Made by a program: the position numbers and the translations under genes
The notes under the pieces: model-generated
What the model was told of the DNA's origin: nothing
Database searches by the model: none
The model's input: the letters and a program-made list of their open reading frames with translations, nothing else
Assembly: GCF_003703975.1 (NCBI RefSeq)
Contig: NZ_QTJY01000004.1
Coordinates: 186,001-250,000 of the forward strand
Length of the DNA stretch: 64,000 nucleotides
Direction of reading: 5' to 3'
Source: Larkinella soli
GTDB lineage: Bacteria; Bacteroidota; Bacteroidia; Cytophagales; Spirosomataceae
Shown: one piece after another, positions 22,397 through 38,288 of the stretch
How positions within the stretch are numbered: position 1 is the first letter of the stretch
How the letters are laid out: each line of letters opens with the position of its first letter

Positions 22397-25300
22397 ATGT
22401 TTTCGCTTCCGCGTGGCAGTATGTTTGTTAGTTATCCTTTACCAGACCTCGGCATCGCACCCGCCGGGGATTTTTCTTTTCCCGGAATCCTTTTTCCCCA
22501 CTTTTCAGGTCACTGGCCCCCCCTACCGACCCCTCCCGGCGGGTTGCCTCTAATCCGTGCGCCGGAGGTGATTCTGCCCACTTCCAACCGGGTTCTGAAT
22601 GCCCTTCTGAACGGGGAAAATCCCGAGCGGCCGGGGTTTCTGTCCCGTTGGACCGAGCCGGAAGGAGAAGCCTTGCGGGCGTATCTGTCCCGACAGGCCG
22701 CCGAACGCCGTCAGGTCGGCACCGTCGATGTCGTCACCGGGCGGCCGGCCCTTGACGAAACGGATTTCGAACTGCCCGGTCCGATACCGATCCGCTGGGG
22801 GCGGACCTATGCGTTCGCCGACGACTGCCCCGGCTCGGTCGGTACGCAGTGGCGTCATCATTACGACTACCGGCTCCTCGTCGGACGGGGCAACGTGACG
22901 GTCTTCCTGCCGGACGGACGGAAGGCCCGCTTTCCGGATTTGAAAGCGGCCGGTGTCCACTTTGCCCGCCCGCAGCAACTGACCCTGCGCTACGACGGAC
23001 ACACCTATGTTCTTCAGGATGTCCAGGGTTGCCTTTACTACTTCAGCCGCCACGTCCGCAACGGTTTCCGGCTGCTCGACCGGATTGAAAACCATCTGGG
23101 CTTCACTATTTCGTTCAGCTATACGGGGGAGGGCATTCTGGAGCGGATCATCGACTCGGCAGGCCGTGTTCTGACGGTATTGTCCGATGCCGCCGGACGG
23201 ATGACCACCCTGGAAATCAACGATTCGGGAGGCACGCTGCCCCTGGTGCGCTACCGCTACGATGCGGGCGGGAATCTGGCCGGCGTCAGTAACCAGCCCG
23301 AGCGGTTTCGGCTTTACGAATACGAGCAGGGCCGGCTGGTCCGCTCCTCCGATTACAACGGACTAAACCGCTACTGGCAGTATGAAAAGGCCGGTGGCTT
23401 CCGGTGCGTCCGGTTCTGGAGCGCCGGCGGCTCTCCGGATTTCCAGCTGGCCTACGGCGACCGCCACACGACGGCAACCGATTCGCTCGGCCGGACGATC
23501 ACCTGGCGGTTCAACGCCGACGGGCAGGTCACGAAACGAATCAATCCGGACGAAAGCTTCCGGCAATTTACCTACGACACCTTCGGGAATCCGGCATCCG
23601 AAACCGACGAAACCGGTAACCGGACAAACTACGACTATGACGAATCGGGCAACTGCTGGGAGATCACGGACCCCGAGGGTCAGATCATTCGTTTCGGGTA
23701 TGACGATGCGCACCGGCTTTGCTCCGTCCGCCTGGCTTCCGGGGCCGAATGGTGCCGGCAGTTTGATGAATACGGGCGGCTGACCGAACGGGTCGGCCCT
23801 GCGGGCGAAACCTTATTTTTCGAATGGGAAAAAGGGCGTCTGGTGGCCGTCACCGACCGGCGCGGTCGCCGGCATGGTCTTCGGTATGATCGCCAGCACA
23901 ACATTCAGGTCCTGAGCCTGCCCGGCGGCCGCGAATACCATTGGCTTTACGACCGGCTCGGCCGGCTGACGGCTTCCTCGGATCTGGCCGGCAACCAGAC
24001 CCGTTATGTCTACGACCGCTCGGGCCGCCTGACGGAAATCCTGGAACCGGATGGGGCTCACCTCCGCATGACTTTCGACGGGGAGGGCCGCATGACGCGG
24101 GTTCAGGGCCGCCGACGTGACATTCGGATAGAGTATGAAGCCACCGGGAAACCCGCTGTACGGAGCGAGAACGGAACCTGCCTTGATTTTCGCTACGATA
24201 CGGAAGGGCGGCTGACCGGTATCCGCAATCCGAGGAAAGAGGTCCGGGCGTTCCGGCTTAACGATTTGGGGCAGGTGACGGAAGAAAGGGGATTCGACGC
24301 GGTAATCCGCAAGTACGGACGCGATCCGGTCGGGCGGGTCGGCCCGGTGGGCTTCCCGGACGGAAAAACGGCGACGTACGTCGCTGACCGGCTTGGCCGC
24401 GTGACCGAAATTCAGTACGCTGACCAAATGCGGGAGAATTTCCGGTACAACGAAGACGGGTTTCTGGTTGAAGCCGCCAATGTCCACAGCGTAGTTCGTC
24501 TCGAACGCAGCCCGGATGGTCTGATCCTGCGCGAAACGCTGACGACGGAGGGCAGCGAGTATGAAATCCGCCATGAATATGACGACCGGAGAAACCGGCT
24601 TCGGTTAGCTTCTTCGCTGGGAGCCGATATCCGGTACCAGCGGGTTCGGGCGGGTGAGGTGTTCAGGACCACCGCCGGTTACTGGGAAGCTGAGTTTCGT
24701 TACGATTTGTCCGGGCAGGAAATCGAGCGGAAACTGCCCGGAGGCCTGATCGGACGACAGGAGCGCAACGCCCTCGGGCGCGTTGTCCGGCATTCCCTGC
24801 TTCGGGGCAAAAGCCGGGTATTCCGCCGGCAGTACCAGTGGCTGCCGGGAGGCCGCCTGGGTCAGGTGGTCGACGAAGTCGGCAAAACGGTAACGTCGTT
24901 CGGGTATGACGCCTTCGGCCGGCTGGAAAGCGAGACGTCCGGGGCTTCAACCGTGCTGAATTATTTCCGCGACGAGGTCGGACAGATGTATGGTACCAAA
25001 GACCGGAAGGACCGTCGCTACCTCCCCGGCGGCTGGATGATCGAAAACCGCGGCTGCCGGTATACGTTCGATGCCCGCGGCCGGCAGGTGGGGCGGCTTC
25101 ACCGCGACAAAAAGGCGAAATGGCAGTATGTCTGGAATGAGAATGATAGCCTGAAGGCCGTTATTCGGCCGGATGGGGAAGAAATCGGCTTTCGGTACGA
25201 TGCGCTGGGCCGCCGGATCGTTAAGAGCAGCGGTGGAAGGGTGGTCCGGTACGTGTGGGAAGGCGACCGGCTTCTTCACGAATGGACTCAGGGGAGCCGT

Positions 25301-25696
25301 CCGACCACCTGGGTGTACGAGCCGGACAGCGGCATCCCGATGGCCGGCCTGATCGATGGGCGGGCCTACTCCATCCTGACCGATTACCGGGGCTGCCCGC
25401 AGCAGGCGTATGACGTCGGCGGCCGCAAGGTCTGGGAACTGGGTCTGACCGCCTACGGGGTCGTCGGCCGGCGGCTGAATGAACACCTGATCCCTTTCAG
25501 GCTGCCGGGGCATTACCACGATCGGGAGACGGGGCTGGATTACGACGGCAGCCGCTACTATCATCCGGAAAATGCCCGGTATTTAAGTCCCGACCCGGCC
25601 GGTCTGAAAGGCTGTCTGGACCCGTACGGCTACTTGCCGGACCCCTATCGCCTGCCGGACCGCCGGCCGGGTCTTAACGGTTATTCAACCTTCTGA
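22397..25696 (+). CDS. DUF6531/RHS-repeat protein lacking a C-terminal toxin domain
   Basis: This is a 1099-residue protein. After about 100 non-repetitive residues comes the DUF6531-like start (VDVVTGRPALDETDFELPGP), then many YD repeats, e.g. YDTFGNPASETDETGNRTNY and YDRSGRLTEILEPDG, that build the Rhs shell. The Rhs core end is seen as YHDRETGLDYDGSRYY, then ENARYLSPDPAGL. Normally a variable toxin of 100 or more residues follows; here only about 30 residues remain before the stop. There is no signal peptide, no PAAR domain and no small immunity gene next to it. Start codon choice between 22397 and the ATG at 22421 is uncertain. Confidence 0.88.
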   Translation: MFSLPRGSMFVSYPLPDLGIAPAGDFSFPGILFPHFSGHWPPLPTPPGGLPLIRAPEVILPTSNRVLNALLNGENPERPGFLSRWTEPEGEALRAYLSRQAAERRQVGTVDVVTGRPALDETDFELPGPIPIRWGRTYAFADDCPGSVGTQWRHHYDYRLLVGRGNVTVFLPDGRKARFPDLKAAGVHFARPQQLTLRYDGHTYVLQDVQGCLYYFSRHVRNGFRLLDRIENHLGFTISFSYTGEGILERIIDSAGRVLTVLSDAAGRMTTLEINDSGGTLPLVRYRYDAGGNLAGVSNQPERFRLYEYEQGRLVRSSDYNGLNRYWQYEKAGGFRCVRFWSAGGSPDFQLAYGDRHTTATDSLGRTITWRFNADGQVTKRINPDESFRQFTYDTFGNPASETDETGNRTNYDYDESGNCWEITDPEGQIIRFGYDDAHRLCSVRLASGAEWCRQFDEYGRLTERVGPAGETLFFEWEKGRLVAVTDRRGRRHGLRYDRQHNIQVLSLPGGREYHWLYDRLGRLTASSDLAGNQTRYVYDRSGRLTEILEPDGAHLRMTFDGEGRMTRVQGRRRDIRIEYEATGKPAVRSENGTCLDFRYDTEGRLTGIRNPRKEVRAFRLNDLGQVTEERGFDAVIRKYGRDPVGRVGPVGFPDGKTATYVADRLGRVTEIQYADQMRENFRYNEDGFLVEAANVHSVVRLERSPDGLILRETLTTEGSEYEIRHEYDDRRNRLRLASSLGADIRYQRVRAGEVFRTTAGYWEAEFRYDLSGQEIERKLPGGLIGRQERNALGRVVRHSLLRGKSRVFRRQYQWLPGGRLGQVVDEVGKTVTSFGYDAFGRLESETSGASTVLNYFRDEVGQMYGTKDRKDRRYLPGGWMIENRGCRYTFDARGRQVGRLHRDKKAKWQYVWNENDSLKAVIRPDGEEIGFRYDALGRRIVKSSGGRVVRYVWEGDRLLHEWTQGSRPTTWVYEPDSGIPMAGLIDGRAYSILTDYRGCPQQAYDVGGRKVWELGLTAYGVVGRRLNEHLIPFRLPGHYHDRETGLDYDGSRYYHPENARYLSPDPAGLKGCLDPYGYLPDPYRLPDRRPGLNGYSTF

Positions 25697-30073: not shown

Positions 30074-31345
30074 ATGAGATACCTGCTCCTGCTTTCTGTC
30101 CTGCTCGTGCCGGCCTGCGAGCGCCGGACTACCGACCGCACGCTGGTGTTCTGGTGTTCGAACAACGCCGGGGAGATTGCCTTTGCGAAGGAGTTTACGG
30201 AACAATGGCAGCGCCGGCGACCCGACAAACCGCTGCGGTTCCAGCCCATTCCGGAAGGACAGTCGAGCGAGGAAATCATTCTGGCGTCGGTGGTCGGCAA
30301 GACCACGCCCGACATCTACGCCAACCTGTGGCAGGGCAACGTCGAGATGTACGCCCGGGCGAAGGTCCTGGTGCCGCTCGACACGCTAAAGGGCTTCCTG
30401 GACTTTATCCGCACCCGCTGCGACAGCAGCATGATCCGCGAAATTACCTCGACCGACGGACACATCTATCAGGTACCGTGGAAGGTGAACCCGATCATGA
30501 CCCTCTGCAACCCCCGCGCCCTGGCCGCCCGCCGGGCCCCGCAGCCGCCTTATACCTACTCGGAATACCTGAAAGCCGGGGCGCAGTTCCGGTTCGACCG
30601 GAACCATGACGGCTATACCGACCAGTGGCTGGGCTACACGGAAGTGAAACCGATCTGGTATCAGCGGCTTTTCAACTTTTACCCGCTTTACCTGGCCGCG
30701 TCGAACGGCGCTCCGCTGATCGCCGACAACCGGGCGGCTTTCAATAACCGGTATGCGGTGGAGGTCTTCCGGTTTTTGCAGGAACTGTACCGGAAAGATT
30801 ATTTCGCCCGCGAGCGGCTCTCAGCCACGCGCGACCCGTTTCTGGCCCGGCGCATCGCCACCCAGTTTACCGGCCCCTGGACCATCGGTTTTCTGGAGAA
30901 GTTCAAAGACCCCGGTTTCGAATACGAGACGTACCCCATGCCCGTGCCTGACGATCACCGGGGGCCGGTGTATACGTACGGCGATCCGAAAAATATCGTC
31001 ATTTTCAACACCTGCCCGGACCCGCAGGCCGCCTGGGAGTTCGTCCGGACGCTGATCGACCGGCCGGGCGACCTCCGGCTGATGGAGCTGACCGGCCAGT
31101 TTCCACGTCGTCAGGGGCTGAACAGCGACCCGTATTTTGCCGGCTTCCTGCGGAAGAACCCGCGACTGGTGCCGTTCGCCCGGCAGGCGCAGTACATCCG
31201 GGGCGTCGACAACTGCGAGGTGATCGTGGAGGTGTTCGACATTATCTCGCAGGAATACCAGGCCTGCGTGCTGTATGACCGGAAGACGCCCGAAGAGGCC
31301 GTCCGGGATGCCGCCCGGGCGGTGGATGTGTTACTCGGCAACTGA
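30074..31345 (+). CDS. ABC-importer extracellular sugar-binding lipoprotein
   Basis: This is a 423-residue family-1 extracellular solute-binding protein. The lipoprotein signal ends in VLLVPAC (Cys15), so it is tethered outside the inner membrane. Family features include ASVVGKTTPDIYANLW, WKVNPIMTLCNPRALAA and FTGPWTIGFLEKF. An insert FDRNHDGYTDQW (about 174-185) looks like a DxDxDG-type calcium loop with Asp at 175, Asn at 177 and Asp at 179. It is the first gene of a five-gene import operon, with the MalF-like permease starting 2 bp after its stop. The sugar cannot be predicted. Confidence 0.88.
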   Translation: MRYLLLLSVLLVPACERRTTDRTLVFWCSNNAGEIAFAKEFTEQWQRRRPDKPLRFQPIPEGQSSEEIILASVVGKTTPDIYANLWQGNVEMYARAKVLVPLDTLKGFLDFIRTRCDSSMIREITSTDGHIYQVPWKVNPIMTLCNPRALAARRAPQPPYTYSEYLKAGAQFRFDRNHDGYTDQWLGYTEVKPIWYQRLFNFYPLYLAASNGAPLIADNRAAFNNRYAVEVFRFLQELYRKDYFARERLSATRDPFLARRIATQFTGPWTIGFLEKFKDPGFEYETYPMPVPDDHRGPVYTYGDPKNIVIFNTCPDPQAAWEFVRTLIDRPGDLRLMELTGQFPRRQGLNSDPYFAGFLRKNPRLVPFARQAQYIRGVDNCEVIVEVFDIISQEYQACVLYDRKTPEEAVRDAARAVDVLLGN

Positions 31346-31346
31346 T

Positions 31347-32204
31347 ATGCGAAAAGACAAATGGATACCCTACGGCCTGGTGGCGCCTTATATCCTGCAC
31401 TTTGCGGTGTTCGTGGCGTTTCCGGTCGTGTTTTCGGTCGTGCTGACGTTTCATCGCTGGAACATTATTTCGCCGATGGAATTCATCGGGCTGGATAACT
31501 ACGTCCGGCTGTTCAAAGACCGGCTCTTTTGGCAGGCGATCTACAACACGCTGCGCTTTCTGGTGGTCCATATCCCGTTGCAGATCGTGGTGGCCCTGGC
31601 GCTGGCCGAACTGCTGAACCGGACCGTGCGGGGAGCCTCGTTCTTCCGGGCGGCTTTTTTTCTGCCGGTGATCGTGTCGGGGGTAGTCGTGACGATTCTC
31701 TGGCAGCAGTTGCTGGGATACAACCTCGGCCTCCTGAACCGGCTGCTGACGGCCGTCAGCCTGCCCCGGGTGGCCTGGCTCGACGATCCGGACATCGCCA
31801 TGTACTCAATCGCCGTCATGGCTACCTGGAAGAACGTCGGCCTGTACGTCATTCTGTTCCTGGTCGGCCTCCAGACCGTACCGGCGCAGTATTACGAAGC
31901 CGCCGATCTCGAAGGCGCCACTGACTGGCAGAAGTTCCGGTACATTACGCTGCCGATGATCAACCCGACCATTTTCACGGTGGTGGTGCTGTCGACCATC
32001 GGCGGGTTTTCGCTTTTTATCGAGCCGTACATCATGACGGAAGGCGGGCCGCTCAACAGTACGCTCTCGGCCGTCATGTACATTTATCAACAGGCGTTTC
32101 AGTACTATCATATGGGTTATTCAGCCACGCTGGGCTTCTTTTTCGCCCTGCTGATCCTGGGGGTGGTCATGCTCCAGCGCCGGTACATCGAACAGGAAAA
32201 TTGA
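31347..32204 (+). CDS. ABC sugar-importer permease (MalF/UgpA type)
   Basis: This is a 285-residue protein. The ATG at 31347 directly follows the upstream stop (TGATATG), so the longer frame starting inside the binding-protein gene is rejected. It has six membrane helices. The EAA loop that docks the ATPase is YYEAADLEGATDWQKFRYI followed by TLPMINPTI (about residues 184-212). It forms the channel with the next permease. Confidence 0.92.
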   Translation: MRKDKWIPYGLVAPYILHFAVFVAFPVVFSVVLTFHRWNIISPMEFIGLDNYVRLFKDRLFWQAIYNTLRFLVVHIPLQIVVALALAELLNRTVRGASFFRAAFFLPVIVSGVVVTILWQQLLGYNLGLLNRLLTAVSLPRVAWLDDPDIAMYSIAVMATWKNVGLYVILFLVGLQTVPAQYYEAADLEGATDWQKFRYITLPMINPTIFTVVVLSTIGGFSLFIEPYIMTEGGPLNSTLSAVMYIYQQAFQYYHMGYSATLGFFFALLILGVVMLQRRYIEQEN

Positions 32205-32216
32205 CCGCATACGACC

Positions 32217-33026
32217 GTGGGACGATTGCTCCGATACTTACTTCTGACGCTGGCGGCAGCCTCGTTCCTCTATCCGTTCATCTGGATGGTCAGTGCGTCG
32301 CTGTCCTCGGAAAACGGGCTGAGTTCGCTGACGCTGCTGCCGGTGGAGCCGACGTGGAGCAACTACGTGAACATGTTTTCGAAAATCCCGCTGGGCCGGG
32401 CGTTTCTGAACAGCGTGCTGGTGGCGGTCGTGACGACGGGGCTGGTGCTGGTATCGGGGGCGATGGCGGGGTACGCGCTGGCCCGGATGCGGTTTCGCGG
32501 CCGCAACCTGATCTTTTACCTGATCATCTTCACGATGACGCTGCCTATGCAGATCACGCTGATTCCCAACTACATCTCCATGGTGAAGCTGGGCTGGGTG
32601 GATACGTATTTCGCGCTGATCATGCCGTTTGTGCTTAATTCACTGTCCATTCTGCTGTTCCGGCAGGCATTCATGGGGTTACCGCAGGCGCTGATCGACG
32701 CGGCCCGGCTCGACGGCTGCGGGGAGTTGCGGATCATCTTCCAGATTCTTCTGCCCAATATCCTGCCCACCGTCCTGACCATCACGATTCTGACGTTCAT
32801 GGGTTTGTGGAACGAAGCGCTCTGGCCGCTGATCGTGATCCGCGACGAACCCACCATGACCATGCCGCAGCTGGTGACCCTGTTTTCGGTGGGTGGGCGG
32901 GCCGAGGCACAACTGGGCGTCAAGATTGCCGCAGCCGTGATGCTGGCCCTCCCGATTGTGGTGCTGTACCTGTTTTTCCAGCGGCATTTTATCCGAAGCA
33001 TGGCTTCATCGGGCTTAAAAGACTGA
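32217..33026 (+). CDS. ABC sugar-importer permease (MalG/UgpE type)
   Basis: This is a 269-residue protein that starts with GTG at 32217, 13 bp after the previous stop. It has six membrane helices, and the EAA loop is LIDAARLDGCGELRIIFQIL followed by LPNILP. The second half of the permease pair has the usual C-terminal FQRHFIRSMASSGLKD end typical of MalG-like proteins. Confidence 0.92.
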   Translation: MGRLLRYLLLTLAAASFLYPFIWMVSASLSSENGLSSLTLLPVEPTWSNYVNMFSKIPLGRAFLNSVLVAVVTTGLVLVSGAMAGYALARMRFRGRNLIFYLIIFTMTLPMQITLIPNYISMVKLGWVDTYFALIMPFVLNSLSILLFRQAFMGLPQALIDAARLDGCGELRIIFQILLPNILPTVLTITILTFMGLWNEALWPLIVIRDEPTMTMPQLVTLFSVGGRAEAQLGVKIAAAVMLALPIVVLYLFFQRHFIRSMASSGLKD

Positions 33027-33030
33027 ACGA

Positions 33031-34341
33031 ATGCATTTATCAGGACGACCGTCGAGTATCTGGCTCCTGCTGATTCTGGGGCTGTTTCCGGCGTTTTCTT
33101 ACAGGGAATCGCCCGCTGCGGAACCGGCGCCGGCCACCCGCTGGGTGAATCCCGCCCATCTGGAGCATCTGTACCGGACCTTCAGACTGCCCAACGGGGC
33201 CGAAGTCGGGACCATCGCCATTTACAGCAATGCGCCGGAGTATCACCTCATCACGGACGCCGACGAAGGCTTCACCTGTGTCGACGACGTGTCAAGGGCG
33301 GCCCTTTTTCTGCTCCACGAACCGGACCTGACCACCCGCGCCGACCGGCAGGACCAGCTGCGGAAGCTGACGGAATTCGTTCTTCGGCTCCAGTCGGACA
33401 ACGGATATTTCTACAACTTCTTATGGCCCGACCACACCATCAACCGCACGTTCCGGACCAGCGTGAATCAGCCCAACTGGTGGTCCTGGCGGGCGTTCTG
33501 GCACCTGACCGAAGCCTATCCATATTTTCAGAAAGCCGACCCCGCTCTGGCCGGTCGTATCCACACCGCCAACCGGCGGCTGGCCGAAGTCATGCTCCGC
33601 GACTTCGGCCACAAACCGAAGGAAATGACCCTCATCGGGGGGCTGTCCGTCCCAAAATGGCTGCCCTACGGCTCCGGGACCGACCAGGCCGCCATTATGA
33701 TGCTCGGGCTCCTGAACTATCGGCGGCATACGCCCGATCCGCAGGTGGTGGGCCTGATCGAATTGCTGGGCGAAGGCATTCTGGCGATGCAGCAGGGCGA
33801 TGCGCAGCAGTTTCCGCACGGCGCGTTCCTGAGCTTTGAAACGACCTGGCATGCCTACGGGAGCGATCAGGCCTACGCCCTGCTCCGGGCCGGGAAGGCC
33901 CTGAACAAACCGGCCTGGGTGGAAGCGGCCCGGCGGGAGATCGACCATTTTTACCCGTATCTGTTGAAAGAGGGTTTTCTGGAGTCATTTGCGGTGATTA
34001 AACCGGGGGACACCATCAGGGCCGAAAAAATGTCGCGGTTTGCGCAGATCGCCTACGGTGTCCGGCCGATGATCTGGTCCGCCCTCGAAGCCTACGACCA
34101 GACGCAGGAAGCCCGGTATCTGGACACGGCCGCTCAACTGGCCGGATGGTTTCTGGGGGTCAATGCCGCCCGAACGAAGATGTACGACCCCGCCACAGGC
34201 CGTTGTTTCGACGGCATTACCTCGGCCACGGCCGTCAACCGAAACTCCGGCGCCGAATCGACGATCGAAGCGCTTTGGGCCTTCCAGCGGCTTGAAAAAT
34301 ACCCCGGCGTTATGAAGGCGCTGGAAAAATACCGTAATTAA
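33031..34341 (+). CDS. Exported (alpha/alpha)-barrel glycosidase-like protein
   Basis: This is a 436-residue protein with an N-terminal signal (ends near AFSYRESPAA). The rest is helix-rich, with aromatic repeats such as TSVNQPNWWSWRAFWHLTEA and KWLPYGSGTDQAAIMMLGLL, consistent with a six-hairpin glycosidase toroid. The segment GVNAARTKMYDPATGRCFDG followed by VNRNSGAESTIEALWAF recalls a signature I associate with (alpha/alpha)6 proteins next to glycan genes. Catalytic residues were not identified. It sits inside the importer operon, 4 bp after the MalG-like gene, so it probably trims the imported sugar outside the cell or in the periplasm. Hydrolase, lyase and phosphorylase chemistry all remain open. 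Confidence 0.65.
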   Translation: MHLSGRPSSIWLLLILGLFPAFSYRESPAAEPAPATRWVNPAHLEHLYRTFRLPNGAEVGTIAIYSNAPEYHLITDADEGFTCVDDVSRAALFLLHEPDLTTRADRQDQLRKLTEFVLRLQSDNGYFYNFLWPDHTINRTFRTSVNQPNWWSWRAFWHLTEAYPYFQKADPALAGRIHTANRRLAEVMLRDFGHKPKEMTLIGGLSVPKWLPYGSGTDQAAIMMLGLLNYRRHTPDPQVVGLIELLGEGILAMQQGDAQQFPHGAFLSFETTWHAYGSDQAYALLRAGKALNKPAWVEAARREIDHFYPYLLKEGFLESFAVIKPGDTIRAEKMSRFAQIAYGVRPMIWSALEAYDQTQEARYLDTAAQLAGWFLGVNAARTKMYDPATGRCFDGITSATAVNRNSGAESTIEALWAFQRLEKYPGVMKALEKYRN

Positions 34342-34392
34342 ACCACACCCCCGGCCCCTCTCCTTGGCAAGGAGAGGGGCCGGGGGTGTGGT
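34342..34392. repeat. Perfect 24-bp inverted repeat inside the ABC-importer operon
   Basis: 34342-34365 pairs perfectly over 24 bp with 34369-34392 around a 3-base GGC loop. The core is CCCCTCTCCTT/AAGGAGAGGGG. It begins right after the stop of the glycosidase-like gene and ends 10 bp before the ATPase start. GC-rich palindromes of this type occur as dispersed intergenic repeats in other bacteria (from memory). There is no T-run after either arm, so it is not a standard intrinsic terminator. Confidence 0.8.
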
Positions 34393-34402
34393 CAGAAACA
34401 CT

Positions 34403-35509
34403 ATGGCAGGAGTCAGACTTGAACACCTTGCGAAAGCCTACGACAAAGGGCCGCTCGTGATCAGAGACGTAAACATCGACATCAAAGACAAGGAATTCGT
34501 CGTGCTGGTGGGGCCGTCGGGCTGCGGCAAATCGACCCTGCTGCGGATGATCGCCGGGCTGGAATCCATCACCGGCGGCCATCTCTACATCGGCGACCGC
34601 CGGGTGAACGAGGTGCCGGCCAGCGAGCGCGACATCGCAATGGTGTTCCAGAACTACGCGCTGTATCCGCACATGACGGTATTTGAGAACATGGCGTTCG
34701 GATTGAAGCTCCGTGGGTTACCGAAGGAGGAAATCCGGCAGCGGGTCGAAAAAGCCGCCCGGATGCTGGAGATCGAAACCCTGCTCGACCGCCGGCCGAA
34801 AGACATGTCGGGCGGGCAGCGGCAGCGCGTCGCCATCGGGCGGGCCATCGTCCGGAATCCGCAGGTATTTCTGTTCGACGAGCCGCTTTCCAACCTCGAC
34901 GCCAAGCTCCGGGGCCAGACCCGCATCGAACTTCAGAAACTGCACCGGGAACTGAACGCGACGATGATCTATGTCACCCACGACCAGGTGGAAGCCATGA
35001 CGCTCGGCGACCGGATCGTGGTGCTGCGCAACGGCGACGTCATGCAGCAGGATACCCCCCTGAACCTCTATAACCATCCGGCCAACCAGTTCGTAGCCGG
35101 CTTCATCGGCTCCCCGCCCATGAATTTTCTGCCCGGCCGTATTTGTGCTGACGGCCCGCTCCGGTTCGAAAGCCGGGGCGGTATGCTGGGCATCGATCTT
35201 TCGGAATATCCGCAGGCCGCCACCCTGCGGGCCTATCAGGGAAAACCGGTCGTGCTGGGCATCCGGGCCGAACACATCCGCCGGCGCCCCGGGCCGAACG
35301 AACGGCGGTTTTTTCGCCGGCTCGTGCCCGTCGAAGCCGTCGAGAACATGGGCAGCGAGACGATGGTCTATTTTCCGCTGGAAACGCAGCGCTTCATCGC
35401 CCGGCTTTCCGCCGATTACCCCATCCCGGCCGATCAGCCGCTCGACCTGTTCTGGGACCTGGGCAAACTCCACTTCTTCGACGCGGAGACGGAGGTGGCG
35501 ATTCGATAG
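34403..35509 (+). CDS. ABC sugar-importer ATPase (MalK/UgpC/MsmX type)
   Basis: This is a 368-residue protein. The start at 34403 (MAGVRLEHLAKAYDKGP) follows the hairpin; a longer frame would read through the hairpin and is rejected. Walker A is GPSGCGKST (37-45), the signature is MSGGQRQRVAIGRA (about 134), Walker B is VFLFDEPLSNLDAKLR, and the H-loop is YVTHDQVEAM. After about residue 240 comes the TOBE/regulatory domain usual for sugar importers. It supplies ATP hydrolysis for the two upstream permeases. Confidence 0.95.
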   Translation: MAGVRLEHLAKAYDKGPLVIRDVNIDIKDKEFVVLVGPSGCGKSTLLRMIAGLESITGGHLYIGDRRVNEVPASERDIAMVFQNYALYPHMTVFENMAFGLKLRGLPKEEIRQRVEKAARMLEIETLLDRRPKDMSGGQRQRVAIGRAIVRNPQVFLFDEPLSNLDAKLRGQTRIELQKLHRELNATMIYVTHDQVEAMTLGDRIVVLRNGDVMQQDTPLNLYNHPANQFVAGFIGSPPMNFLPGRICADGPLRFESRGGMLGIDLSEYPQAATLRAYQGKPVVLGIRAEHIRRRPGPNERRFFRRLVPVEAVENMGSETMVYFPLETQRFIARLSADYPIPADQPLDLFWDLGKLHFFDAETEVAIR

Positions 35510-35535: not shown

Positions 35536-38265
35536 TTAAAATTCTTCCTCTCCTCCCGAATTGTTGTCCTCCCGGTCGCGCTCCCGATCCCGTTCGCGGG
35601 TGACCTGTCTGCTCAGCCGGTAGCTGAAGCCGATGAAACCGATGCGGCTTTCGCGCTTGTTCCGACTGGTCGAGACGAAGTTCGGGCCGAAGCTTTCGTT
35701 CCGGAACTGAAGGGTATTGAAGACGTCGCTCACCCGCAGGCTGACGGTGCCGCGTCCTTTCAATACCTCCTGCTTGACGCCGACGTCGACATTGAAAAAG
35801 CCTTTGATCGTGCCCTGCGCGACGATGAAGGGCGAGCGGTAATTGGCCGCGATCTGAATGTCGGTGCCCCGCTTCGGATTCATGTTCGAGGTAACGCGGG
35901 CCGTCCAGCTTCGGTTGGTACGCGTCAGGATGCCCGGTACGTCGGCGCTGCCCTGAATGGTCCGCTGGAAAAAGGAGAAATTCCCATTGGCTTTCCACCA
36001 TTTCGTAATATCCTGGCTCAGCACGATCTCCAGACCGTAATTCTGCGAGCGGTTCAGGTTCAGAGAAGTCTGCTCCGTGATGCCGTCGGGGCGGAGCGTC
36101 CGGTAGGTCGTCACCTCGTTGTTGGTCTGGCGGTAAAAGAGCGACGAGGTCAGCGACGTGCTTTTGCCGTACCAAAGGTGGCTCAGTTCGAACGAGTTGA
36201 CCAGTTCCGGGTTCAGCAGCGGGTTCCCGAACCGGATGTTCAGCGGGTCCGACAGGTCGACGAACGGGTTCAGCGAACGCACCGACGGCCGGTTGATCCG
36301 CCGGGAATAGTTGATCTGCATCTTCTGCGCATCGCTCAGGTTATAGTTGACGAAAGCGCTCGGAAACAGGTAGATATAGTCTCGTTTAGCAACCTGGTTC
36401 GTCGTGCGCTGATCGGTTGCGATGGCCGTATATTCGCTCCGCAGCCCGACCTGATAGCTGATTTTCTTGAATTCATTTCCGAAATTGACGTAAGCCGCGC
36501 TCGTCCGCTCGTCGTAGATGAAGTTGTTGCTGATGTTGGGGTTGATCGTCCAGGCCGTCCCTTCCTGATTCTGGAACACATAGTCGGCTCCCAGCCGGCG
36601 GTAGGTGTGTTTCAGCCCGGCTTCCAGTCGTTTTTTCTCCTTCATGGGTTCCACAAAATCCAGTTGCAGGACGGCCACCCGGTTATTACGCTCGTTTTCG
36701 GCCCGCTGCCGGCCGATCAGGAAGTTGGGCGTCAGCAGGCTGTCGGGCAGCGTGGTCGTGTTGTTGAAGTCCTGGCGTTCGGTACCCCGGTTGTTGGACA
36801 GGGTGGCGTCGAAGGAGAGTTCCCGGCCCTTTTTGGCGAAGGTCCGGCGGTAGCCGAAGGCATAGTCGAGGCCCCGCTCGGGTTCGCTTTCATCCGTCGT
36901 CCGCAACGTCTTTCCGAGCGAAAGCCGGCGGGCGTTCTGGGTGTCGAAGGTCTCGACCTCCGTGTCGCGGCTAAATTCCGGCCGGTAGAGGATGGAAGCC
37001 GTGATATTGTCGCGGGGTGAGAGCGTATAATCGAAACCAAACCGCAGGTTGTTGTTCACCTGCCGGCGGATGGCGTCGTTGCGCTGAGCCAGGTAGCTGG
37101 TCGAATCCCCGAACAGATTCTGGCGGTCCGAGATCCGGTATTGGAACCGGCGGTCGGCCCGGAAGTTGTAGCTGCTGAACAGATTGATCTTTTTAAACCG
37201 GGAATTGAGGTTGATCGACGCGTTGTATTTATCGCGCGTTCCGACGTTGACCTGTACGCTGCCGTTGAAGCCGGCGGCCCGTTCTTTCTTCAGAACGATG
37301 TTGATGATTCCGGCCGCGCCGTCGGCATCAAAGCGTGACGACGGGTTGGTGATCATTTCGATGCGTTCAATGTTACTGGCCGGAATCTGCTCCAGAATGG
37401 CCTGCCGGTCCAGGCCGGTCAGCCCCGACGGTTTGCCGTCGACCAGCACGATCACGTTGCTGCTTCCGCGCAGGCTCAGCGTCCCGTCGACGTCCACCGT
37501 AACGGAGGGCACGTTCTGGAGGATGTCGATGGCCGAGCCGCCCTGCGCGATCGGCAGCTGATCGACGTTGACGATCTTCCGGTCGAGCGAGTATTCATAT
37601 GCCTGCCGCTGGCCCTGCACCGTTACCTCCTGGAGCTGTTTGGCGGTTTCGGCCATCGAAATATTGCCCAGATCGGCCGTCGGTTTGTCAGGGCTGACCA
37701 CGATTCGCGGAATGCGCTTATTAGAAAAACCGAGGCTTTGAATAAGCAGATAATAGGCACCCGGCGCCAGGTTGCTGATCTGGAAAAAGCCTTTTTCGTC
37801 GGTCAGCGAACCCGTAACCGAGCTGGAATCCGTCGAGCGGAACAGTCCGACGCTGGCAAACTCGACGGGGGCATTCTTTCCCCCCTGCGGGGCCACGAGC
37901 CGGCCGGTGATGCGGCCGATGCCCTGCCCGGCGTCGGCCGGAACCGGTCGGGCGGATGCGTTACCCGTGGCCGGCTGACGGGTGGGCCGGGCGGACCTGA
38001 CCGGCTGCGTGGAATCGGAAAGGGCCGGAGCCGTTGCAACCGGAGCCGGATTCGTCACGGTCCGGACGGTATCGGGCCGGTCGGCGGTATTGAACTGGAT
38101 GGTGTCGGGGCGGGTCGGAGCCGCGGGCCGGGTGGTATCGGGTTGCAGGCCGATGGCCTGAATCATGGAGTTGGGTAAGGTCGGCGATTCCTGAGCACAA
38201 ACGCTTTCCACGCCCATCGCCAGACCAGTCAGGATCAGAGAAAATGTAAACCGATAATCTTTCAT
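35536..38265 (-). CDS. Outer-membrane beta-barrel (TonB-receptor-like) protein
   Basis: This is a 909-residue protein. The start at 38265 gives a signal peptide (MKDYRFTFSLILTGLAMGVE, then SVCAQ); six more codons upstream are rejected. After a Pro/Thr-rich linker (about 45-110) come a carboxypeptidase-like regulatory domain (IGRITGRLVAPQGG) and a plug (LPIAQGGSAIDILQNVPS). The rest is a large barrel with many alternating strands, such as RFGFDYTLSPRDNITASILY. It belongs to the 'outer membrane beta-barrel protein' group of Bacteroidota. The sequence ends in a charged tail (RERDRERDRED, then GGEEEF) that extends past the last strand. No partner SusD gene is present. Confidence 0.87.
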   Translation of the reverse strand: MKDYRFTFSLILTGLAMGVESVCAQESPTLPNSMIQAIGLQPDTTRPAAPTRPDTIQFNTADRPDTVRTVTNPAPVATAPALSDSTQPVRSARPTRQPATGNASARPVPADAGQGIGRITGRLVAPQGGKNAPVEFASVGLFRSTDSSSVTGSLTDEKGFFQISNLAPGAYYLLIQSLGFSNKRIPRIVVSPDKPTADLGNISMAETAKQLQEVTVQGQRQAYEYSLDRKIVNVDQLPIAQGGSAIDILQNVPSVTVDVDGTLSLRGSSNVIVLVDGKPSGLTGLDRQAILEQIPASNIERIEMITNPSSRFDADGAAGIINIVLKKERAAGFNGSVQVNVGTRDKYNASINLNSRFKKINLFSSYNFRADRRFQYRISDRQNLFGDSTSYLAQRNDAIRRQVNNNLRFGFDYTLSPRDNITASILYRPEFSRDTEVETFDTQNARRLSLGKTLRTTDESEPERGLDYAFGYRRTFAKKGRELSFDATLSNNRGTERQDFNNTTTLPDSLLTPNFLIGRQRAENERNNRVAVLQLDFVEPMKEKKRLEAGLKHTYRRLGADYVFQNQEGTAWTINPNISNNFIYDERTSAAYVNFGNEFKKISYQVGLRSEYTAIATDQRTTNQVAKRDYIYLFPSAFVNYNLSDAQKMQINYSRRINRPSVRSLNPFVDLSDPLNIRFGNPLLNPELVNSFELSHLWYGKSTSLTSSLFYRQTNNEVTTYRTLRPDGITEQTSLNLNRSQNYGLEIVLSQDITKWWKANGNFSFFQRTIQGSADVPGILTRTNRSWTARVTSNMNPKRGTDIQIAANYRSPFIVAQGTIKGFFNVDVGVKQEVLKGRGTVSLRVSDVFNTLQFRNESFGPNFVSTSRNKRESRIGFIGFSYRLSRQVTRERDRERDREDNNSGGEEEF

Positions 38266-38288
38266 AACGTGTGAATAAGCCAATAATG

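Follow-up and report, generated by a model that had tools for sequence, protein, structure and literature searches.

The stretch of the Larkinella soli genome analyzed here (64,000 nucleotides, or 64 kb, of contig NZ_QTJY01000004.1, hereafter called the window) carries at positions 30074 to 35509 an operon of five genes, all with open reading frames on the plus strand. They encode a solute-binding protein (SBP), two permeases (P1 and P2), an exported enzyme that we label ENZ, and an ATPase, in that order. The SBP gene (30074 to 31345) matches SBP_bac_8 (PF13416, E value of 1e-18) and SBP_bac_1 (PF01547), and the N terminus of the protein, read by eye, looks like a lipoprotein signal (LLVPAC). 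P1 (31347 to 32204) is MalF/UgpA-like and P2 (32217 to 33026) is MalG/UgpE-like; both match BPD_transp_1, and their best NCBIfam models, UgpA and UgpE, respectively, scored below cut-off. The likely start of P1 is the ATG at 31347, one base past the SBP stop, a longer reading frame from 31275 overlapping the SBP gene; P2 has a GTG start. ENZ (33031 to 34341), a relative of YPO2471 (PDB 7TEM), has a GAEST motif and is an (α/α)-barrel protein according to an AlphaFold2 model. The ATPase (34403 to 35509) is of the UgpC/MalK type with an OB_MalK domain and scored 481 bits against NF008653, the UgpC subfamily model with a cut-off of 432 bits; its likely start is the ATG at 34403, an upstream TTG at 34364 sitting within a hairpin. 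The SBP, both permeases, and the ATPase all exceed their Pfam cut-offs, which places them in the class of carbohydrate ATP-binding cassette (ABC) importers of the MalEFGK/UgpABCE type. Families, strand, and open frames thus agree with a preliminary description of this DNA as a complete five-gene ABC sugar importer.

In each of the five genes, most differences from two congeners were at third codon positions (0.19/0.15/0.46 at the three positions for ENZ), which is the pattern expected under purifying selection. Compared with two congeners that keep SusD, the SBP is 81% identical and the permeases are 88 to 91% identical. This conservation, together with the codon-position pattern, ruled out chance or broken reading frames, and the operon is real and intact. 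Within the genome (6.92 Mb, 82 contigs), in a search for binding proteins that covered PF13416, the SBP is the sole match, and two of the four BPD_transp_1 matches are the operon's permeases. The best solved relative of the SBP is Lmo0859 from Listeria (4gqo, E value of 4e-40). A scan for sigma-70 promoters gave one promoter-like site against 1.5 expected and was uninformative.

The AlphaFold2 model of ENZ, built from 38 homologues, reached a pLDDT of 91.4 and a pTM of 0.88. It bore out the helix-toroid fold suggested earlier, the (α/α)-barrel assignment coming from the structural matches of the model. The only strong solved relative is YPO2471, a putative exported protein of Yersinia pestis, which was found with a sequence E value of 1e-105 and a profile E value of 9e-176. 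The two proteins are homologous over their full length, with 41 to 42% identity, a Z score of 62, and a root mean square deviation (rmsd) of 1.3 over 397 residues. The next folds are cellobiose 2-epimerases (Z of about 30, rmsd of 3.0 to 3.1, about 330 residues aligned, 8 to 14% identity), and Foldseek matched ENZ to an AGE with E values down to 5e-8. Other matches were AGE and YihS isomerases and GH76 α-mannanases (Z of 26.4 and 26.2, 7 to 12% identity). The 50 best fold matches listed are mostly enzymes by name and also include terpene synthases and one virus tail protein (7xdi), and the absence of a family from these matches was not taken as evidence. Since the next matches are epimerases, isomerases, and GH76 enzymes at 7 to 14% identity, the reaction cannot be read from the fold by itself. 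By sequence, ENZ gave no match above any Pfam or NCBIfam cut-off and no epimerase or GH76 Pfam match up to an E value of 0.1. Membership in GH127 or GH88 was rejected on weak Pfam scores (16.6 bits against a cut-off of 24.9 and 12.9 against 26.6, respectively). Our literature search found no report on YPO2471, or on 7TEM with Yersinia. The GAEST-signature enzyme had previously been described as having no nameable function, and this holds; no unrelated assigned activity of ENZ emerged within the literature and databases searched.

Thirty-six columns are invariant across the 38 ENZ sequences, among them E79, D85, D86, R89, D218, H274, E303, and D394; E409 is near-invariant, and each GAEST residue is kept in at least 90% of the homologues. 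Of the histidines, H43, which lies in the first helix, and H274 are the only invariant ones. Catalysis by AGE enzymes generally relies on a pair of histidines in the barrel, and GH76 enzymes have tandem catalytic aspartates. The PDB titles of the fold matches name H247 and H248 mutants for the epimerase fold and D136/D137 mutants for GH76; in ENZ, D85 and D86 form an invariant pair. The N terminus of the window ENZ reads as a plain signal peptide, and the ENZ proteins of SusD-linked family relatives carry a lipobox.

Three sets of relatives were used to read the gene company of ENZ. A first set of 42 ENZ loci came from a scan of genome contigs that started from peptide patterns, and for that reason an even draw of 395 genomes of the phylum was made, of which 30 carry ENZ at an E value of 1e-40 or better. 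From these, 28 regions of 12 to 17 kb were read, our own genome being left out along with G008, already part of the family set; some of the regions overlap with the 42-locus set. The family set comprised 200 genomes, 31 of them with ENZ, and 30 regions were counted, the window's own being set apart. The SBP-P1-P2-ENZ block is complete in 28/30 family regions (the misses are L094 and L114, the latter on a truncated contig), with the ATPase next door in 25/30. The SBP and both permeases are present in 27 of the 28 phylum regions, L131 being the one without. The preliminary description had let its case depend on an operon unbroken in close relatives. That was so for most relatives with ENZ, but ENZ is often absent altogether, as in five of the nine same-genus genomes listed, our own genome among the nine.

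SusD and LamG lipoprotein genes lie upstream on the same strand in 13/30 family regions, and tblastn found SusC in 10 of these 13. The same description had the ABC importer standing in place of SusCD. This fits the window, in which no SusC, SusD, or LamG match was found with the proteins of relatives as queries, but as a general statement it was rejected in view of those 13 regions. Seven loci (L014 to L017, L019, L021, and L022) have ENZ alongside SusC, SusD, and an MFS carrier; ABC genes were not found in them. Four of the seven (L014, L016, L017, and L021) additionally have GH130 and a large protein, C8, and all but one of these four carry C14 too; here the same system takes a SusCD-MFS form. 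C8 and C14 as they occur in L014 (L014:11641-13464 and L014:415-2892, respectively) gave no Pfam match at an E value of 0.01 and no useful PDB match. The ENZ loci of Yersinia, Serratia, and Sphingomonas have another type of ABC transporter, with SBPs only 24 to 27% identical. In the Yersinia/Serratia clusters a 373-residue protein (L027, 6767 to 7888), without a Pfam match at an E value of 0.01, lies between DUF1861 and ENZ; by eye it resembles a porin of the outer membrane and would then be a parallel to SusCD.

Outside the family, GH130 is a frequent companion of ENZ. By gene clustering it is present in 34/42 loci of the first set, and by tblastn in 36/42, two of these at the locus edge (those without are L003, L005, L006, L008, L015, and the truncated L043). 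An alignment-based profile found GH130 in 26/28 phylum regions, all except L131 and L148, at about 6 kb from ENZ in L141 and L142. The link persists across transporters, being seen with SusCD plus MFS (L014, L016, L017, and L021), with the Bacteroidota ABC type, and with the other ABC type of Yersinia, Serratia, and Sphingomonas. Our own genome has three GH130 genes in 6.92 Mb, all outside the operon; at such a density, chance proximity of ENZ and GH130 should be rare.

Of the 53 clustered GH130 proteins, one was cut by a contig end and left out, and all 52 of the others match both NF050092 and NF052550 (β-1,2-mannobiose phosphorylase) at 1e-10 or better. A profile of the 52 scored highest against enzymes of β-1,2-mannosides, with Uhgb_MS (352 bits), Lin0857 (342), β-1,2-mannobiose phosphorylase (276), and 1,2-β-oligomannan phosphorylase (275); it gave 185 bits with β-1,4-mannooligosaccharide phosphorylase and 151 and 136 with mannosylglucose phosphorylases. 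A DUF1861 relative lies near GH130 in three Yersinia loci, one Serratia locus, and one Sphingomonas locus (L027, L033, L036, L035, and L028; Pfam was run on L027 and L028). Five solved relatives of the Yersinia DUF1861 neighbor were found at an E value of 0.001 or better, namely entries for MPT-1, MPT-2, and MPT-4 (4e-47 to 4e-42) and 2b4w ("hypothetical protein, conserved"). The entry 6Q50 is listed as a Leishmania GT108 enzyme, and these enzymes act on mannogen, a β-1,2-mannan (PMC8950772). DUF1861 reportedly figures in work on Leishmania drug resistance. A GH2 relative occurs in eight loci; in the one representative scanned, the GH2 domains exceeded their cut-offs, and Ig domains of the mannosidase type fell short of theirs. 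The target sugar had been left unnamed in the preliminary description; the neighbor genes of the relatives suggest β-mannosides, probably β-1,2-linked.

On balance, then, we regard the operon as probably an ABC importer for short β-mannosides, most likely β-1,2-linked oligomannosides or glycans capped with them. From the gene content, protein families, predicted fold, conservation, and gene company we infer the ligand and every reaction of the following scheme. The glycan would cross the outer membrane through the adjacent SusC/SusD pair in many relatives, as the adjacency suggests, and by another route in L. soli. ENZ, predicted to be a soluble periplasmic protein in L. soli and a lipid-anchored one in SusD-linked relatives, would trim the glycan as a glycoside hydrolase of an unassigned family to an importable oligosaccharide, a role suggested by its fold, its invariant acidic residues, and its gene company. 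The SBP, the two permeases, and the UgpC/MalK-type ATPase would import this oligosaccharide. Cytoplasmic GH130 phosphorylases, encoded in the same cluster in many relatives, would then split it to mannose 1-phosphate, a step that the three GH130 genes elsewhere in this genome would serve.

Several observations weigh against this interpretation. GH130 lies within the operon in only 4/30 family regions; the window belongs to the majority without it and has no GH130 match anywhere in its 64 kb. The genome's own GH130 that is most like the operon type proved to be of another type, which occurs in 34/34 family genomes tested, five of them without ENZ. As this type is present regardless of ENZ, it says nothing specific on the operon, and it was rejected as the operon's partner. 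None of the GH130 scores among those listed reaches an equivalog cut-off, the best being 474 against 550 bits, and the exact linkage is for that reason unproven; 20/52 GH130 proteins also match a β-1,2-mannosidase model. GH13 genes in four clusters (L010, L027, L035, and L036: two of the three Yersinia loci, Serratia, and one Flavobacterium, with one representative scanned) hint at an α-glucosyl part of the substrate. Next to 7TEM, the fold of ENZ comes closest to epimerases (Z of 30), ahead of GH76 (Z of 26). The ligand of Lmo0859, the nearest solved SBP, is listed as unknown (PMC7676653). Another study notes that lmo0858-0865 had earlier been put forward as a maltose system and that maltose uptake uses a different one (PMC2860498).

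The window also differs from its closest relatives in ways that bear on the outer-membrane step. No close SusD was found elsewhere in the genome, the best match having 44% identity to the L. knui SusD, compared with 87% in congener L085; of the three proteins, the genome-wide search covered SusD. SusCD has probably been lost in this genome, judging from these sequence comparisons, and a tree places the window among relatives that bear both lipobox and SusD. The window ENZ (33031 to 33130 compared with L085 to L113) has a tyrosine at the position of the lipobox cysteine of close relatives. Lipoboxes were labeled by pattern, which matched 42/72 N termini, and by eye for L112 and L113, the truncated L114 being dropped. 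A lipobox is present in 13/13 family relatives with SusD and in 4/17 rows without SusD; the window is one of the 13 rows that have neither. Fisher's test on the 30 rows (13/0/4/13) gave p of 2e-5, but supported branches offer only five independent pairs, on which a sign test was not significant (median p of 0.5). With too few independent pairs for significance, the link between lipobox and SusD was not used as proof. As a hypothesis, ENZ may be lipid-anchored beside SusCD and soluble where SusCD is missing.

These changes bear on an alternative in which the window operon drifted to a different sugar after SusCD loss and works without GH130, so that the neighbors of its relatives would be uninformative on the substrate. 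The lack of SusC, SusD, LamG, and GH130 matches in the window, the distant best SusD, and the tyrosine in place of the lipobox cysteine speak for such a drift. Against it, the SBP and permeases remain close to those of the SusD-keeping congeners, with differences mostly at third codon positions, and none of the residues invariant among distant relatives is lost from the window ENZ. We consider such a drift improbable. It disputes the cargo, and its odds overlap with those of three further alternatives, which dispute the ENZ step only.

Among the latter, ENZ could be an accessory trimming hydrolase that removes a nonmannose or α-linked decoration, such as α-mannosyl or α-glucosyl groups, so that the β-mannoside core can be imported, and would then not be a β-mannanase. 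The GH76 α-1,6-mannanases among its next folds, a possible correspondence of their tandem aspartates to the invariant D85-D86, and the GH13 genes in four clusters speak for this role; against it, Asp-Asp is also kept in an ENZ-like domain fused to a glycosyltransferase (see below). We judge it somewhat unlikely. A periplasmic sugar 2-epimerase-like isomerase of the cellobiose 2-epimerase/AGE type, converting reducing-end glucose or mannose before import, would account for the epimerases that follow 7TEM among the folds and for the AGE match in Foldseek, and known mannan pathways have operons in which GH130 is paired with cellobiose 2-epimerase. The low identity, the lack of any epimerase Pfam match up to an E value of 0.1, and the presence of H43, in the first helix, as one of only two invariant histidines argue against it, and we think it distinctly unlikely. 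It is very improbable that ENZ is a noncatalytic sugar-handling protein, for example, a periplasmic chaperone or a protein that binds to the SBP or SusCD. The literature search turned up no activity for the family, and the virus tail protein indicates that the fold is not always catalytic, but the 36 invariant columns include E79, D85, D86, D218, E303, and D394, with E409 nearly so, and most of the 50 best fold matches listed are named as enzymes.

The proposed β-mannoside importer can be set beside several known systems. In the part of the study available to us, the Thermoanaerobacter cluster has an SBP, two permeases, ATPases, and two β-1,2 GH130 enzymes, and ABC import of 1,2-β-oligomannan followed by phosphorolysis was proposed for it (PMC4264767). 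That logic of import followed by GH130 phosphorolysis is shared with our system; the cluster differs in having a GH5 enzyme and two hypothetical proteins, and no SusCD is named in that part. With the YPO2471 family, ENZ shares full-length homology and fold, and in three other Yersinia species, Y. pestis not among them, a relative stands at the end of an ABC-GH130 cluster. Those loci differ in ABC subtype (SBP 25 to 27% identical), in carrying DUF1861, and, in 2/3, in carrying GH13. In Listeria, Lmo0859 is the closest solved SBP, and Lin0857, the protein closest to the Yersinia GH130, is a β-1,2-mannobiose phosphorylase (PMC8950772). The locus numbers of the two species suggest that both belong to one cluster. 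Cellobiose 2-epimerase/AGE enzymes share the (α/α)-barrel of ENZ, and GH76 α-1,6-mannanases share this fold and act on mannan, the proposed type of substrate of ENZ; both groups differ from ENZ in sequence, as described above. SusCD polysaccharide utilization loci resemble the 13 family regions with SusD and LamG upstream; the window lacks these genes, and its inner-membrane step is an ABC pump.

A second, weaker ENZ homologue in the same genome forms a domain behind a GT4 glycosyltransferase (profile E value of 2e-16, columns 80 to 422) and keeps the Asp-Asp pair. This fusion adjoins a GH130 of 496 residues (L115, 6986 to 10881; about 113985 to 117880 of C2 in our own genome), the GT4 partner having been checked in our own genome only. 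GH130 proteins of this type are those present in 34/34 family genomes tested, whether or not ENZ is there. In L136, L137, and L139, a relative of the fusion shares its region with ENZ and GH130. The fusion and its GH130 may form an internal β-mannoside cycle.

A hairpin of 24 bp with a 3-nucleotide loop (34342 to 34392; -55.9 kcal/mol, z of -9.2) occupies the space from the ENZ stop codon to the start of the ATPase gene. Its 15-base arm occurs once per orientation in the whole genome, only at this site. Among 151 loci, the only ones with its 11-base core were the two copies from our own genome (L001 and L121) and L027, which has it as a single occurrence. The hairpin may lower the level of the ATPase or stabilize the upstream mRNA. 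Directly downstream of the operon and convergent with it, a gene on the minus strand (35536 to 38283) encodes a TonB receptor-like outer membrane barrel (OMP_b-brl_3), in a window without a SusD match. Upstream, at 22397 to 25696 on the plus strand, lies an RHS-repeat protein of about 1,099 residues with DUF6531.

The logic of transport and phosphorolysis was already known; what is new is the unassigned enzyme and the hybrid SusCD-ABC layout. A broader proposal, which we offer tentatively and consider less likely than the importer assignment itself, is that ENZ, YPO2471, and their relatives represent a new glycoside hydrolase family acting on β-1,2-linked mannan outside the cytoplasm, as the depolymerizing partner of GH130. 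In the hybrid loci of Bacteroidota, SusCD would hand its product to the ABC pump, and the GT4 fusion beside another GH130 would point to an internal β-mannoside cycle resembling mannogen turnover. Among the titles of the literature matches listed, none named an endo-acting β-1,2-mannanase, an absence that does not amount to proof. The proposal gives 7TEM and its family, in Bacteroidota-type and proteobacterial genomes, a substrate hypothesis, and it could close the gap between the known β-1,2-mannoside phosphorylases and the missing enzyme that would feed them. Loci in which SusCD genes stand next to those of an ABC sugar pump also raise the possibility of a hand-over of sugar between the two membranes.

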